DNA of 64,000 nt, taken from positions 1 through 64,000 of the forward strand of contig CAIUPH010000092.1 of NCBI GenBank assembly GCA_903901015.1. Reading direction: 5' to 3'. Source of the stretch: Candidatus Bathyarchaeota archaeon (lineage in GTDB: Archaea > Thermoproteota > Bathyarchaeia > Bathyarchaeales > Bathycorpusculaceae). Below are positions 15,728 through 22,066 of this stretch, piece after piece. The notes under the pieces were generated by a model. It had not been told where the DNA came from. It was given only the letters and a program-made list of their open reading frames with translations, and did no database searches. Position 1 is the stretch's first letter, and every line of letters starts with the position of its first letter. The position numbers and the translations under genes are program-made.

Positions 15728-15827
15728 CTGCGAGAAAGTGCCTGTTTTGTTGTTTCCGAAGAGCTTTTTATTGCGTTATGCATCGAAAAACAAGTCGCCA
15801 TAGGCCGTGTTTTTTTAAATGAACCAG

Positions 15828-15843
15828 CCATTAACTTAATATA
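15828..15843 (+). promoter_or_regulatory. AOR promoter block, copy 1
   Basis: CCATTAACTTAATATA lies 46 bp before the ATG of the first AOR gene and includes a TATA-like TTAATATA. The identical 16 bp occur at 19644-19659 with nearly the same spacing to the second AOR start, which marks it as a conserved promoter or operator. Confidence 0.65.
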
Positions 15844-15888
15844 GTTTTTACTTGCCTTCTAATCTTACCAAGATTGAGGGTAAAAAGC

Positions 15889-17811
15889 ATGTTTTCATAC
15901 GCAGGAAAAATCTTACATGTTAACCTCACAACAGGGGAAACAAGAACCGAGCTGCTAAGCGAAACGATGGCTAAACAATACATCGGCGGCATAGGCTTAG
16001 GCATACGCTTACTCATGGACAACTCCAAACCAGGCACCGACCCCTTCCACCCAGACAACCCAATCATCTATTGTACGGGTCCACTCAGCGGCACCATGGG
16101 ACCAACAGCCGGCAACGGATACGCTGTGGTTTCCAAGTCACCCGCCACTGGAGGAGTCGGCGAAGCAAAAGCACATGGCTTTTTTGGTCCTGACCTAAAA
16201 CGCGCAGGATACGACGCCGTAGTAATCACTGGCAAAGCGCCAAAACTGTCTTACTTGTGGATTGACGACGACAAAGTCGAAATCCGAAACGGAGAATACC
16301 TAAAGAACGCCACCGTCGGCGATACCGATAACAAAATCCGGGATGAACTCGGAGACTTCTATATTCGCGTATCCGCCATCGGCGAAGCAGGCGAAAAACT
16401 CTGCAGATTCGCAGCCATCATAAACGATGAGTTCCGCGCAATCGGACGCACAGGCATGGGCGCCGTCATGGGCAGCAAAAACCTCAAAGCCGTAGCAGTC
16501 CGCGGAACAAAAGACGTTAACGTCGCCAACATGCCCGGCTTCAAAGAATACATCAAAATGATCCATGAACGCATGAAGGGACCCGCAACCAAGAAATACA
16601 AGACTTTGGGTACCCCCGAAAACGTCCTAGTCCTCAACTCGCTCTCAGCCTTAGCCACGAGGAACTGGACGAACGCAACTTTTGAGGGCGCAAACAAAGT
16701 CAGCGGCGAATACTTAAACGAGCATTATGTTAAGAAAATCGTGGGTTGCGCAACATGCGGTATGCGTTGCGACCACATATGCGTTGTTCCAGAGGGACCT
16801 TACAAAGGTTCAACTTCAAGATTAGAATTCGAATGTTTATGGAGTCTGGGACCGCTCTGCGGTGTTGACCGACTTGACGCAGTCATCGAAGCCATGCGCA
16901 TCACAAACGAATACGGCATGGACGGCATCTCAATCGGCGTCGTCGTCGCATTCGCCATGGACCTCTACGAGCACGGCATAATAACCAAGGAACAAACCGA
17001 CGGAATTGACCTCAAATTCGGAAACGCAGAAGCCTTAATCGCGATAATCCACAAAATTGGCAAACGCGAAGGCTGGCTTGGTAACATCCTTGCGGAAGGC
17101 GTCGCTAAAGCAGCAGAACTCATCGGCGGAGACGCATACAAGTACGCTTGCCACATCAAAGGCCTGGAACTTCCAGGCTACGACCTAAGAACCCTAAAGA
17201 CCGCAGCACTCGGATTCTCAGTTTCGTTCCGAGGCGCATGCCACCTAAGAAACGGCGCTTACTCACCCGACGTTAAGGGCAAAGTGAACCGCTTCAAAAT
17301 CGAGAAAGGCCGCGGCAAAATGATTACCGACGAGAGCCACATGTACAACATCATCGACTCGCTCATAGTGTGCAAGTTCAGCAGAGGCACATACTACGAT
17401 GGCTGGAAAGACCTAACCAACTACTACACACTCGCCACAGGCATCCCTATCACCGTGGAAGAAATGACGGCGGACGGCGACAGAATCGAAAACCTCGCAC
17501 GCCTCTTCAACATCCGCGAAGGCAAAGGCACACGCAAATTCGACGACGTCCCATACAAGATAAAGAATTTCCCAGTGCCAGATGAAGGACCAGCGAAAGG
17601 CGTCTGTGTTAGCGACGAAGAAATGGCAATTGGCTTAGACGATTACTATGCTTCACGCGGCTGGACCGCCGATGGTATCCCGACGGTTGAACGCCTGAAA
17701 CTTTTGGGTTTAGGCGACTTAGCCTACATTGCCGAAGACGCCATGAAAACTGCCCAAGCAAATAAAGACGCCAAAGCATCCGCGCCCGTAGCAACTGTAG
17801 GAGGAAATTAA
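15889..17811 (+). CDS. Aldehyde ferredoxin oxidoreductase family protein 1 (tungsten-pterin enzyme)
   Basis: From ATG 15889, behind GAGGG, the protein has about 640 residues. It begins M-F-S-Y-A-G-K-I-L-H-V-N-L-T-T-G-E-T, the start of nearly all AOR-family enzymes. Family blocks include GRTGMGAVMGSKNLKAVAVRG and LGPLCGVDRLDAV. The [4Fe-4S] ligands are CATCGMRC (CxxCxxxC) plus a distal cysteine in SLIVCKF. The family oxidises aldehydes, or in BamB-type enzymes reduces aromatic thioesters, at a bis-pterin tungsten site. The polyferredoxin gene starts at the very next base, so the pair should form a two-subunit complex as in AorAB or BamBC. The substrate cannot be predicted. Confidence 0.9.
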   Translation: MFSYAGKILHVNLTTGETRTELLSETMAKQYIGGIGLGIRLLMDNSKPGTDPFHPDNPIIYCTGPLSGTMGPTAGNGYAVVSKSPATGGVGEAKAHGFFGPDLKRAGYDAVVITGKAPKLSYLWIDDDKVEIRNGEYLKNATVGDTDNKIRDELGDFYIRVSAIGEAGEKLCRFAAIINDEFRAIGRTGMGAVMGSKNLKAVAVRGTKDVNVANMPGFKEYIKMIHERMKGPATKKYKTLGTPENVLVLNSLSALATRNWTNATFEGANKVSGEYLNEHYVKKIVGCATCGMRCDHICVVPEGPYKGSTSRLEFECLWSLGPLCGVDRLDAVIEAMRITNEYGMDGISIGVVVAFAMDLYEHGIITKEQTDGIDLKFGNAEALIAIIHKIGKREGWLGNILAEGVAKAAELIGGDAYKYACHIKGLELPGYDLRTLKTAALGFSVSFRGACHLRNGAYSPDVKGKVNRFKIEKGRGKMITDESHMYNIIDSLIVCKFSRGTYYDGWKDLTNYYTLATGIPITVEEMTADGDRIENLARLFNIREGKGTRKFDDVPYKIKNFPVPDEGPAKGVCVSDEEMAIGLDDYYASRGWTADGIPTVERLKLLGLGDLAYIAEDAMKTAQANKDAKASAPVATVGGN

Positions 17812-18321
17812 ATGGTTCGACCTCAAGACCGAAAATTCGTGACAGCAGACCCCGACAAATGCATCGGCTGCGTAGTTTGCGAATACGCCTGCAGCATGGT
17901 TAACGAAAACACCTTCAACCCCAACAAATCCCGCATACGCGCCATGCGCATCGGCCCGCTTGTGAACCTTGCAGTTACTTGCAGGAAATGTGAAGACCCC
18001 GCATGTGTCGCAGCTTGCCCCAGAGACGCCCTCAAACAGGAATGTGACAGCGGAATTATACGCGTGGACGAAAACGTCTGCAACGGCTGTGGCTGGTGCA
18101 TTAGCGCATGCCAATTCGGAGCAATGAACCTGCATCCGGACAAGAAAATAGCGTTCACTTGCAACAGCTGCACAGACAACGAAACTAAAGAACCCCAATG
18201 CGTCAAATGGTGCCCTGAAGAAGCCCTGTCATTTGTCAGCGCAGAAACCTTATCGCAGAAGTACCGTCAGAAAGCTGTTAAGAACCTGTTCCAAACAGCA
18301 GAAGCCACCAAACCCCAATAA
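17812..18321 (+). CDS. Polyferredoxin subunit paired with AOR 1
   Basis: The 169-residue protein has about 16 cysteines in four [4Fe-4S] groups: CIGCVVCEYAC, CRKCEDPACVAACP, CNGCGWCISAC and CNSC...CVKWCP. This is the electron-transfer subunit type seen with AOR/BamB-like catalytic subunits. ATG 17812 follows the AOR stop with no gap, with GGAGG inside the end of the AOR gene as its ribosome binding site. It probably carries electrons between the tungsten subunit and soluble ferredoxin or another partner. Confidence 0.9.
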   Translation: MVRPQDRKFVTADPDKCIGCVVCEYACSMVNENTFNPNKSRIRAMRIGPLVNLAVTCRKCEDPACVAACPRDALKQECDSGIIRVDENVCNGCGWCISACQFGAMNLHPDKKIAFTCNSCTDNETKEPQCVKWCPEEALSFVSAETLSQKYRQKAVKNLFQTAEATKPQ

Positions 18322-18330
18322 ACTCAGATT

Positions 18331-18362
18331 AAAGTTTTTTTGTATCTTCATTTTATTTTTTT
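18331..18362 (+). terminator. T-rich terminator after AOR operon 1
   Basis: Two T-runs (TTTTTTT and TTTATTTTTTTT) follow the ferredoxin stop with no stable hairpin, the usual archaeal T-tract termination signal. Confidence 0.45.
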
Positions 18363-18390
18363 TGTTCTCAAGACTGGTTACTCTACGATT

Positions 18391-19114
18391 TTATTTTTTT
18401 TTAGGTTTAGCGTAAAATACTGTTGCCGCACATATTGCGCAGATTGTAACCACAGTTATCAGTAATGGTGCAGTATAGGTTCCGTTGAGCCGATCCGCTG
18501 GGGTGTTGGCGGATTTTGGGTGGGGGTTGGCGAGTTAGTTTGGTTAATTGGCGTTGGGGTTGGCGTAACGGAGGGGGTTGGGCTGGGACTTGGAGTTGGT
18601 GGCGGTCGCGGCATGGTGTGCAGGGTAACAGGCTGCAATGTTACTGTGTTTATGTCGGCGATTCTTGTCGTTGAAGTGATGTTGTTCCAGTCGCTTGTGA
18701 ATTGGCCATTGTAGACGGTGTTTGATGTAAAGTCTTGGCTGACGTTTTGGGAGCCGAAGATGAAGGTTAAATTGCCTTTCATTACGGAGATTCTAATGTT
18801 GTGGTTTTGGTAGTTGAATTGCCACTCTGAAATGGGAAAGCATGTGCGGTCATCTTGGCATCGTTCTTCACTCGCGTTAATAGCCAGTACCCAGTGTCGG
18901 GAACTATCCCGTCGAGAAACAACGTCATGGCACCTACCAAAGATGCATCGTCACTGTAAGTACCCTGAACGTCATCGACAGTATCAAACTGCCTAAATCG
19001 GCTGTTACTGTATAATGGGCTGTTTATCAGTCCTTGCCAAGCCGAACTATTGCCACTGTTTAGAATACCTCTAAAATTACTTTGGTTTCCCTGATCAAAA
19101 TATGGATAAAACAT
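18391..19114 (-). pseudogene. Decayed surface protein with PT-rich stalk and C-terminal membrane anchor
   Basis: Three minus-strand frames must be joined. From ATG 19114 the first frame encodes a beta-type ectodomain (LVGAMTLFLDGIVPDTGYWLL) and stops at 18782. A second frame, open from upstream of that stop, continues E-W-Q-F-N-Y-Q-N-H-N-I through a Pro/Thr/Ser stalk with PTPTP repeats. A third supplies N-G-T-Y-T-A-P-L-L-I-T-V-V and a membrane helix ending KPKKK at 18391. At least two frameshifts are needed, and no signal peptide is found upstream of 19114. It looks like a dead gene for an anchored exoprotein lying between the two AOR operons. Confidence 0.65.
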
Positions 19115-19189
19115 TTGTGAAAGTTCGCTGGTTCATATAGGACGAAGGGTTTCCTGAGAGCAAGGGCACACTTTGTTGGCGCAAAGAAT

Positions 19190-19465
19190 TTAGCCGCCGG
19201 TCACAAGCGACATCAAAATGACGGTATTGCGGTCTTTTAGAGGCGTGTTTATGCCTTGAAGCTGATCCATGTGGGTGCCGTTGACCATAGTGACGAACGT
19301 GGTTTTCATTTCTTTCTTGACTGGGTCATAGACTTCCTTTGTGAATTGTGTGCCGTAGTCTTGTGCGATTTTGTCGAGCAGTACCGACAGTACTGTGCCG
19401 TTTGGCAGGTCGAATTCGTCTTGGCTTGTGTTTGTGTAGGATTTTACTAAGCCGATGTAATGCAC
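19190..19465 (-). CDS. MoaD/ThiS-like ubiquitin-fold sulfur carrier
   Basis: The 91-residue protein starts at GTG 19465 (MHYIGLVKSYTN) and ends in the diagnostic Gly-Gly (SLVTGG). MoaD proteins carry a C-terminal thiocarboxylate that supplies sulfur for the dithiolene of molybdopterin/tungstopterin. It lies between two tungsten-pterin oxidoreductase operons, divergent from the second, so it probably serves cofactor assembly for them. A relative used in other sulfur transfer or protein conjugation is possible. GGAGG lies about 20 nt upstream, rather far from the GTG. Confidence 0.85.
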   Translation of the reverse strand: MHYIGLVKSYTNTSQDEFDLPNGTVLSVLLDKIAQDYGTQFTKEVYDPVKKEMKTTFVTMVNGTHMDQLQGINTPLKDRNTVILMSLVTGG

Positions 19466-19643
19466 TTTTATCTGCGTTTTCTCTGCCTCCTGTCTTGGGT
19501 ATCTGATTGTTGTTGGGTTCTGATATCTCTTTTCTATGTTTACAGATATTTTGCGTGCGGAAAACCTCGCATGGCGTTATGCGCAATTATACATGACGGC
19601 GCCTCATCCTTCATAGTGAGCCGTGAAAATCCAAACTAACAAC

Positions 19644-19659
19644 CCATTAACTTAATATA
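19644..19659 (+). promoter_or_regulatory. AOR promoter block, copy 2
   Basis: Identical to the 16-bp block at 15828-15843 (CCATTAACTTAATATA), here 47 bp before the second AOR start. Sequence around the two copies is otherwise different. Confidence 0.65.
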
Positions 19660-19705
19660 TTCTTCAACCCCACTAAATATTCTAAAACTCTTGGGAGGAA
19701 CAAGG

Positions 19706-21562
19706 TTGCTAGGATACGCAGGAACAATCTTATATGTTGATTTAACCACAGGCAAAACTCGCACAGAAAAACTAAGCGATGATGTCGCCAAAAAATACGT
19801 CGGCGGCATCGGCCTTGGCATGAAACTCTACTTATCCAACTCAAAAGCAGGCGTGGACCCATTGAGCGCAGAAAACCCGCTCGTCCTTGCAGTCGGACCC
19901 GTCTCTGGAACCATGTTTCCGACAGGCGGAAACGGACACGCATTCATATCTAAATCACCCGAAACAAACGGTGTCGGAGAAGCCGTAAGCCACGGCACCT
20001 TCGGAGCCGAACTAAAACGTGCAGGCTACGACGCAGTAATCTTCACGGGCAAAGCAGAAAAGCCAGTTTACCTCTGGTTGGACGACGACGCAGCCCAGAT
20101 ACTTGATGCATCTCAGATTTGGGGTAAATCCTCAGGCGAAACCGAAGACGCCATCAAAAACGAAATCGGCGACTACTACGTTCGCGTAGCATCCATCGGT
20201 TTAGCAGGCGAAAAACTATCCAAAATCTCAAGCATATTCAACGAGAAAACCCGTGCAGCAGGTAGAACAGGCCTTGGCGCAGTCATGGGAAGCAAAAACC
20301 TCAAAGCCATCGCTGTCAGAGGAACCCGTGACATAGCGGTTGCGAAACCCGACGAATTCATAACCATGGTTAAAGAATTCCATGAACGCATGAAAGGTCC
20401 AGCCGCACAGAAATACCGCACGCTGGGAACATCCGAAAACATAATGGTTCAAAACCAGCTTTCCTGTTTACCAACCCGCAACTTCAACAACGCCCACTTT
20501 GACAACGCCCAAAAAGTCAGCGCCGAAGCACTAAACGAGCGTTACATCACAAAAATCATCGCTTGCAACTCATGCGCCATGCGCTGCGAACATGAAGCAG
20601 TTATCAGAGAAGGAACCTACAAGGGCACCCAAGCACGCATGGAATTCGACAGCGTTTGGGCGCTTGGACCCAACTGTGGCGTAGACAAACTAGACGCAAT
20701 AATCAAAGCGGCTGAATTGTGCAACTACTATGGTCTTGACGCGACAAGTGCGGGCGTAACCGTTAGCTTCGTCATGGACTGCCACGAAAAAGGCATATTA
20801 ACCCATGAAGACCTCGGCGGATTAGACGCCCACTTCGGAAACGCAGACGCACTCGTTCAACTCATCGAGAAAATCGGCAAACGCGAAGGAATCGGCGACA
20901 TGCTCGCTGACGGCGTGAAAATTGCATCAGAAAAAATCGGCAAAAACTCAAGCCAACTTGCCCAGCAAATTAAAGGCTTAGAAGTTACAGGCTACGATTT
21001 ACGCTGCCTCAAAACCGCGGCTTTAGCATCAGCAGTTTCGTTCCGCGGAGCAGACCAAAACCGCAGCGGCGCCTACACCATCGATTTGAAAGGCAAAGTT
21101 GACCGTTTGAAAGCTGAAAAAGGCAGAGGCAAACTCGTTAAAGACGCCGAAGACACATATTCACTCATCGACTCCCTTATCATCTGCAAGAACGCCAAAG
21201 GCACCCTCTACAATGAACTCTCTGACATGGCAAAACTCTACCGTTTAGTCACAGGCTACGAGATGACTTCTGAAGAACTCACAGTTGCAGGCGAACGCAT
21301 AAACAACCTTGCCAAACTCATCAACGTCAGAGAAGGCAAAAGCCGCATAGACGACACTCTTCCATGGAAAGTTCTCAATCAACCCATCACAGACGACGGA
21401 CCAGCAAAAGGCGCAGTTGTAACCCAAGAAGAACTCGACCTGTTGCTTGACGACTACTATCAAGCCCGAGGATGGAACGTCGAAGGCATACCGACCAAAG
21501 CTAAACTCAAAGAACTCGGCTTAGAAGAGTTTTCAAGCATAATCGAAGGAAAAGAGGCATAA
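19706..21562 (+). CDS. Aldehyde ferredoxin oxidoreductase family protein 2 (tungsten-pterin enzyme)
   Basis: The protein is a close paralogue of the AOR at 15889. The start is TTG 19706 (MLGYAGTILYVDLTTGKT), chosen because GGGAGGA at 19693-19699 sits at ribosome-binding distance and the sequence then aligns with AOR 1. The Fe-S motif is CNSCAMRC with the distal Cys in SLIICKN. Shared blocks are GRTGLGAVMGSKNLKAIAVRG and LGPNCGVDKLDAI. The C-terminal region after about 600 is shorter than in AOR 1. A matching polyferredoxin gene follows after 3 bp. The two enzymes probably differ in substrate. Confidence 0.9.
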   Translation: MLGYAGTILYVDLTTGKTRTEKLSDDVAKKYVGGIGLGMKLYLSNSKAGVDPLSAENPLVLAVGPVSGTMFPTGGNGHAFISKSPETNGVGEAVSHGTFGAELKRAGYDAVIFTGKAEKPVYLWLDDDAAQILDASQIWGKSSGETEDAIKNEIGDYYVRVASIGLAGEKLSKISSIFNEKTRAAGRTGLGAVMGSKNLKAIAVRGTRDIAVAKPDEFITMVKEFHERMKGPAAQKYRTLGTSENIMVQNQLSCLPTRNFNNAHFDNAQKVSAEALNERYITKIIACNSCAMRCEHEAVIREGTYKGTQARMEFDSVWALGPNCGVDKLDAIIKAAELCNYYGLDATSAGVTVSFVMDCHEKGILTHEDLGGLDAHFGNADALVQLIEKIGKREGIGDMLADGVKIASEKIGKNSSQLAQQIKGLEVTGYDLRCLKTAALASAVSFRGADQNRSGAYTIDLKGKVDRLKAEKGRGKLVKDAEDTYSLIDSLIICKNAKGTLYNELSDMAKLYRLVTGYEMTSEELTVAGERINNLAKLINVREGKSRIDDTLPWKVLNQPITDDGPAKGAVVTQEELDLLLDDYYQARGWNVEGIPTKAKLKELGLEEFSSIIEGKEA

Positions 21563-21565
21563 TAC

Positions 21566-22066
21566 ATGGTAAAGGTGCACGAGAGAAAATTCGTTTCCGC
21601 TGACCCAGAAAAATGCGTCGGCTGCCAAATATGCGAGTACACTTGCTCATTCACCAAAGAGAAAGCCTTCAACCCGCTTAAATCACGCATACGAGTCGTC
21701 AGAGTTAACCAGTTAGCCAACATGGCTGTCACCTGCAGACTCTGCGAAGCCCCCGCTTGCGTAGCCGCGTGCCCAAGAGACGCACTTACACAATCCGAAG
21801 ACACGGGCAACATCGTTCTCGACAAGGACAAATGCAACGGCTGCGGCTGGTGCATCGAAGCCTGCGACTACGGCGCCATTATGCTGCATCCAGAAACCAA
21901 AGTAGTTTACGTATGCGACATGTGCAAAGACAAAGCCGACGGACCCCAATGCGTTAAATGGTGCCCTGAAGAAGCCATAACCGTTGTTACAAGCGATGTT
22001 TTGGCGCAGAAAGCAAGAATCGGCGCAATCAAGAAACTCTTCCAAGAACCCGAAGAGAAAAAGTAA
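21566..22066 (+). CDS. Polyferredoxin subunit paired with AOR 2
   Basis: The 166-residue protein is a paralogue of the ferredoxin at 17812, with the same four cysteine groups (CVGCQICEYTC, CRLCEAPACVAACP, CNGCGWCIEAC, CDMC...CVKWCP). It starts 3 bp after the AOR stop. The parallel order AOR-ferredoxin in both operons shows that the pair was duplicated as a unit. Confidence 0.9.
   Translation: MVKVHERKFVSADPEKCVGCQICEYTCSFTKEKAFNPLKSRIRVVRVNQLANMAVTCRLCEAPACVAACPRDALTQSEDTGNIVLDKDKCNGCGWCIEACDYGAIMLHPETKVVYVCDMCKDKADGPQCVKWCPEEAITVVTSDVLAQKARIGAIKKLFQEPEEKK

Follow-up and report, generated by a model that had tools for sequence, protein, structure and literature searches.

Why should two neighbouring operons, each encoding an aldehyde oxidoreductase (AOR) and a ferredoxin-like small subunit, start from the same 16-bp promoter sequence? 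The question is raised by a stretch of 64,000 nucleotides (hereafter, the window) from a draft Candidatus Bathyarchaeota genome (G000; 2.05 Mb, 117 contigs, 97% complete), the nearest named relatives of which are Candidatus Bathyarchaeota MAGs from peat and soil and Ca. Bathycorpusculum. As an earlier preliminary description of the locus had stated, the gene order in both operons is AOR and then a four-cluster ferredoxin (FdA and FdB; Table 1), with 16 Cys residues each, arranged as four cluster-binding motifs. AOR-A and AOR-B are the only two AFOR_C genes in G000. Translation probably begins at ATG 15889 in AOR-A and at TTG 19706 in AOR-B, both with an SD-like sequence (GGAGG/GAGGG) in front; the upstream TTG codons at 15874 and 19691 were judged unlikely as alternatives. 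Two abutting short ORFs were also found on the reverse strand at 18459-19114; they have no Pfam match, one contains a Pro/Thr-rich stretch, and together they may represent one broken or frameshifted exported protein.

Table 1. Genes and promoter elements of the two AOR operons (window coordinates)
Feature	Position	Strand	Remark
Distal shared element GCCGTG, AOR-A promoter	15804..15809	+	24 bp upstream of block
16-bp block CCATTAACTTAATATA, composed of CCATTAAC (BRE position) and TATA box TTAATATA, AOR-A promoter	15828..15843	+	
AOR-A, predicted WorL-type tungsten aldehyde oxidoreductase, 640 aa	15889..17811	+	AFOR_N 244 bits, AFOR_C 383 bits
FdA, WorS-type four-[4Fe-4S] small subunit, 169 aa, 16 ligand Cys	17812..18321	+	
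ThiS/MoaD-like gene (WorX-like), divergent from AOR-B, between the two operons	19190..19465	-	Pfam ThiS
Distal shared element GCCGTG, AOR-B promoter	19620..19625	+	24 bp upstream of second block
16-bp block CCATTAACTTAATATA, AOR-B promoter	19644..19659	+	
AOR-B, WorL-type, 618 aa	19706..21562	+	AFOR_C 399 bits
FdB, WorS-type four-[4Fe-4S] small subunit, 166 aa, 16 ligand Cys	21566..22066	+	

The block is exact in both promoters, as first described, and lies with its end 45 and 46 nt from the likely AOR starts, a spacing previously counted as 46-47; this gap leaves room for a short SD-bearing leader. The block consists of a TATA box with CCATTAAC at the BRE position. Genome-wide promoter statistics for G000 were based on pattern searches and individual stretches, and the only copies with 0-1 mismatch were these two, one per AOR operon; one unrelated site has 2 mismatches. 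The surrounding DNA, thought at first to be simply different, is not: GCCGTG repeats at an identical offset upstream of both blocks, and conserved positions flank the block across species. Within the block, two of the 16 positions (7 and 8) vary across species; in most other genera, CCATTAG or CCACTAG precedes AOR-A and CCATTAA precedes AOR-B. The perfect 16/16 match is a trait of some genomes of the window's genus and is partly local.

The core of the element, CCAYTARNTTWATAT (CCAYTAR-N-TTWATAT), was sought in 32 genomes of the genus and 163 genomes of the order. Matches were assigned by their position relative to AOR hits, and unresolved cases were read individually. At the genus level, 33 of 37 core matches were AOR promoters. 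At the order level, 84 matches were obtained, 69 of them immediately upstream of an AOR gene, 14 elsewhere and one at a contig end. Because the reversed pattern, used as a control, gave 11 matches in the same 163 genomes, the non-AOR matches are at about chance level. Moreover, 37 of 327 intergenic upstream regions from related loci carried the block, every one before an AOR-sized gene, and none of the approximately 290 remaining regions did. The element is practically exclusive to AOR operons and is conserved over many genera of one Bathyarchaeia family, which strongly supports the earlier proposal of selection on a common regulatory site. Since it stands before almost no other genes in related species, the two operons are very probably switched on together. 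No account of these AOR promoters or of this element was found in the papers on Bathyarchaeia that were consulted.

The same data bear on the simplest reading of the block, namely a strong ordinary TATA/BRE promoter whose two copies are identical by coincidence. As a TATA box, TTAATATA is indeed ordinary for archaea and correctly placed, and AORs of other lineages have similar TATA boxes with other BRE sequences. However, the sequence does not recur at many unrelated genes, as a common TATA/BRE sequence would, either in G000 or in the 163 genomes; with two copies in the genome, non-AOR matches at chance level and flanking conservation at fixed positions, this reading is largely refuted and must be considered highly improbable.

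A wider regulon was also considered and rejected, as the inspected non-AOR matches look like chance with two exceptions. In two genomes of one genus (L181:19-33 and L182:1162-1176), CCACTAGATTAATAT lies approximately 115 bp before a gene that resembles pyruvate carboxylase/oxaloacetate decarboxylase in its translation and is a possible extra target of the element. In G023 (L133:432-446), the core precedes an ArsR-like gene followed by a ferredoxin-type protein, both recognised by eye from the translation, and the ArsR-like gene is a candidate regulator locus.

Conservation was assessed in 21 promoters, thinned to those whose proteins were <85% identical. The AOR genes of the compared sister genomes differ by a dS of approximately 0.6-1.2, so neutral sites have largely turned over. 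The block's own columns were selected by the pattern, and their conservation is partly by construction. Outside the search pattern, T at -15 (2.0 bits), A at -3 (1.7 bits) and T at -16/-14 were conserved, as was TTTTCA at +17 to +22, right after the TATA box; the background over 80 upstream columns averaged 0.2 bits with a maximum of 0.72. Across species, conserved positions reach approximately 16 bp upstream and 7 bp downstream of the block, and at the distal GCCGTG region the orthologous promoters share a conserved C(A/G)T and a fixed T-run. The conservation of GCCGTG, the T-run and TTTTCA outside the 16 bp indicates a composite promoter larger than the block. In position and size the block is like the conserved archaeal promoter-proximal operators that overlap BRE/TATA; unlike those, the element is specific to AOR operons and to one Bathyarchaeia family.

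CCATTAR lies directly upstream of TATA, at the BRE position, and G000 contains two TFB genes; the motif might then be the BRE of one of two TFB paralogs, defining a TFB-specific set of promoters in place of a dedicated regulator. Such a BRE would be expected at many genes, whereas the element is confined to AORs, and the conserved positions at -15/-16 and +17 to +22 fall outside the usual BRE. We regard the TFB explanation as rather unlikely. No conserved regulator gene was seen beside the operons in the related loci inspected.

Next to the question of what reads the element stands that of how two operons came to share it. In a tree with outgroups, AOR-A grouped with AORs from other families in the order (f6 and f7), and AOR-B joined a separate deep lineage, with support of 100/98-100 for the separation. 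Constraining AOR-A inside the block-bearing B clade cost 90 log-likelihood units (p-AU 1.4e-9), which rules out a simple tandem-duplication origin of the coding regions. AOR-A and AOR-B are deep paralogs and did not arise by recent local duplication, and the term "duplicated" in the preliminary description is misleading in this respect. The block is absent upstream of the A-type genes of families f6 and f7 and of the basal family member G094, and in most B relatives that do not belong to the block-bearing clade its place is taken by AGATAC-TTAATATA or another sequence; mapped on the tree, presence of the block requires four changes. The deep paralogy and the block-less A relatives indicate that the element was gained or copied secondarily before both genes and has been maintained by selection. 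The data are compatible with copying of the promoter and with convergence alike.

It is accordingly difficult to see the shared block as a relic, devoid of regulatory meaning, of a recent tandem duplication of an AOR operon with its promoter. The operons do share gene order and neighbourhood, with protein identities of 55% (AOR-A and AOR-B) and 57% (FdA and FdB), but each AOR has its own relatives in other families, the nesting of A in B is rejected, and A relatives outside the family, like G094, lack the block. Copying of the promoter alone could have occurred, yet its retention would still need selection. A meaningless relic is therefore very unlikely.

Several related loci vary on this arrangement. 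In L029, L030, L047, L051, L062, L066, L077 and L084, the sequence upstream of AOR-B is mostly (C/T)AGATAC(A/C)TTAATATA, at the same place, and may perhaps derive from the same regulatory site by divergence. Some B orthologs that fall outside the block-bearing clade combine AGATAC with an unchanged TATA box, so the exact block sequence is dispensable in some relatives. Locus L195 (G007:C2:257000-269500) has three AOR-ferredoxin pairs in tandem, one diverged A-type and two B-type; the B-types carry the block as CCATTAGC, and one of the two has an Asp/Gln active site. In family f7 (L174, L175, L177, L185 and L187), an A-type AOR is followed by two ferredoxin genes, the first of which is 71-74% identical to FdB and not to FdA. 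FdA appears, from such comparisons, to be the faster-changing small subunit.

By gene composition, both pairs are best read as Class II WORs (WorL-WorS), for which the use of tungsten and ferredoxin is predicted. AFOR_N and AFOR_C scored far above cut-off in both AORs, the cluster Cys residues are present in WorL, and the 16 Cys of WorS provide four [4Fe-4S] sites. No further redox subunits are encoded in the operons; the neighbours at this locus are an M24 peptidase, the WorX-like gene, UppP and an M3 peptidase. Most clades of Class II WORs have no characterised member (PMC13328260). With the Class II WORs Pyrococcus furiosus WOR5/ASOR and Caldicellulosiruptor GOR (PMC13328260), the window pairs share the AFOR subunit, the four-cluster small subunit and a nearby ThiS-like WorX. 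Unlike these, the window proteins are nearer in sequence to AOR sensu stricto, and two deep paralogs lie side by side under one promoter element. Archaeal GAPOR (NF040818) was rejected for both AORs (35.5 and 42 bits against the curated 1300) and was found nowhere else in the genome. The AOR model NF007354/PRK09849 was likewise rejected as an assignment (200 and 215 bits against the curated 868).

The nearest solved structures were an electron-bifurcating WOR (9MQX), P. furiosus AOR (PfAOR, 1AOR) and AorB/AorA of Aromatoleum aromaticum (8C0Z). AorAB(C) and the bifurcating WOR were among the best sequence matches for WorL and WorS alike, and no gene for AorC (the FAD subunit) or for a bifurcating subunit was found in the operons or their neighbourhood. 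PfAOR has the fold and the [4Fe-4S] Cys in common with the window proteins and, unlike them, no WorS. BamBC, the class II benzoyl-CoA reductase, also combines an AFOR fold with a polyferredoxin and lacks the AOR second-shell residues, as AOR-B does in part. In overall similarity, the BamB match was much weaker than that to 9MQX (217-230 against approximately 400 bits), and no Bam complex genes were seen near the operons.

The two AORs differ at the active site. The AOR second shell consists of Thr243, Glu313, Tyr427 and His448 in PfAOR numbering (PMC12096430), and the AorB equivalents Glu331 and His464 are proposed proton-relay residues (PMC10413684). AOR-A has all four (Glu315, codon 16831; His452, codon 17242), as do its orthologs in the block-bearing family, diverged A-like copies excepted. 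Those strongly diverged copies, in Ca. Bathycorpusculum and related genomes (L050:4196-6046, L055:3365-5257, L056:747-2621 and L129-L132), have Arg182 of the cofactor shell and Thr243/Glu313/His448 variously replaced and the cluster Cys present. AOR-B keeps the equivalents of Thr243 and Tyr427, whereas Glu313 is replaced by Asp (codon GAC at 20648) and His448 by Gln (codon CAA at 21056). Both window proteins have Gly for Tyr452 of PfAOR and differ from it at some cofactor-shell positions. All four second-shell residues are present in AOR-B orthologs from beyond the genus. Within the genus, Glu313 to Asp occurs in every sampled B copy and His448 to Gln in three genomes on different branches (the window's, G006 (L009) and G007 (L017)); some B copies have Tyr427 to Phe and Thr243 to Ser, and Tyr312 to Phe is unique to the window among the B copies compared. 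The AOR-B structure model (pLDDT 65, pTM 0.69) confirmed the AOR fold; its confidence is low in the active-site region, so the residue assignments rest on alignment.

Both genes are under purifying selection, with dN/dS of 0.05-0.07 for AOR-A and 0.10-0.14 for AOR-B; towards the same sister genome, AOR-A is 97% identical (dN/dS 0.049) and AOR-B 87% (0.136). The cluster ligands CX2CX3C and the fourth Cys are intact in both (Cys287/290/294 and 495 in AOR-A, 287/290/294 and 494 in AOR-B). These features point to functional divergence or a changed role of AOR-B and not to pseudogene decay. AOR-B might be losing aldehyde-oxidoreductase catalysis while being kept for another role: the Asp is genus-wide among sampled copies, further second-shell residues are replaced in some, AOR-B evolves faster than AOR-A, and BamB, an enzyme of other chemistry, is also devoid of these residues (PMC12096430). 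Several observations speak against this: purifying selection is strong, no cluster Cys has been lost, and FdB shares 97.5% identity with its ortholog in L138/G023. The change from Glu to Asp is also conservative, and the His is retained in the majority of B copies. We consider such a loss unlikely.

The paired enzymes had earlier been suggested to use paired substrates or to run in opposite directions, one oxidising aldehydes and the other reducing acids or thioesters. The active sites do differ, but opposite directions and acid or thioester reduction found no support. AORs can reduce acids (PMC9295118, PMC12727526), and two paralogs with differing second shells and a WorS each would suit such an arrangement. 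However, sequence sets no direction, the missing His/Glu proton relay does nothing to promote reduction, and with a promoter in common both enzymes should be expressed in the same circumstances, which makes a division by direction very improbable.

Filaments of AorABC form through a helix at the C terminus of the small subunit. FdA and FdB have a conserved C-terminal tail, LxQKxRxxAxxxLF; the structure model of the ferredoxin was of too low confidence (pLDDT 42) to be used. It is conceivable, though doubtful, that the AOR-WorS pairs are made in fixed proportion for a mixed oligomer or filament, in which AOR-A would perform the chemistry and AOR-B would be an electron-storage, structural or differently reacting subunit. 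In that case, the dedicated promoter element would enforce stoichiometry, and AOR-B would be the subunit short of the His/Glu relay.

The neighbourhood offers some hints at physiology. WorX genes accompany WORs (PMC13328260), and relatives of the WorX-like gene occur at 17 related loci. The divergently oriented M24 peptidase gene is a neighbour at 19 related loci, operon B is followed by a peptidase M3 gene, and G000 has three POR-type loci (2-oxoacid:ferredoxin oxidoreductases). The two peptidases and the POR-type loci would fit aldehydes derived from amino-acid fermentation. Lignin-derived aromatic aldehydes, on which other Bathyarchaeia have been enriched (reviewed in PMC12694404), may be an alternative source.

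Overall, we think it probable that the window encodes two Class II WORs of deep separate descent that are co-regulated through an AOR-dedicated element and have divided their function. Two WorL-WorS pairs would have become neighbours and come under the control of a single archaeal promoter dedicated to AORs, in which the TATA box TTAATATA is joined by an unusual conserved CCATTAR at the BRE position, a T-run/CRTG approximately 16-24 bp further up and TTTTCA just behind TATA. A putative trans-acting factor probably reads this element and switches both operons together, the signal possibly being aldehyde supply, redox state or tungsten. AOR-A would oxidise aldehydes in the canonical way and deliver the electrons to ferredoxin via its WorS, and AOR-B, with its modified second shell, would most likely act on a different or bulkier substrate or by altered chemistry.

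Very few Bathyarchaeia have been cultured, and most WOR clades lack a known physiological role. For such an uncultured archaeal group, a regulatory element so clearly devoted to one function is unusual. A promoter element essentially confined to AOR operons across a family offers a handle on what these enzymes respond to. Moreover, deep paralogs that acquired or converged on one promoter, while one of them changes catalytic residues, provide two concrete proteins to compare.
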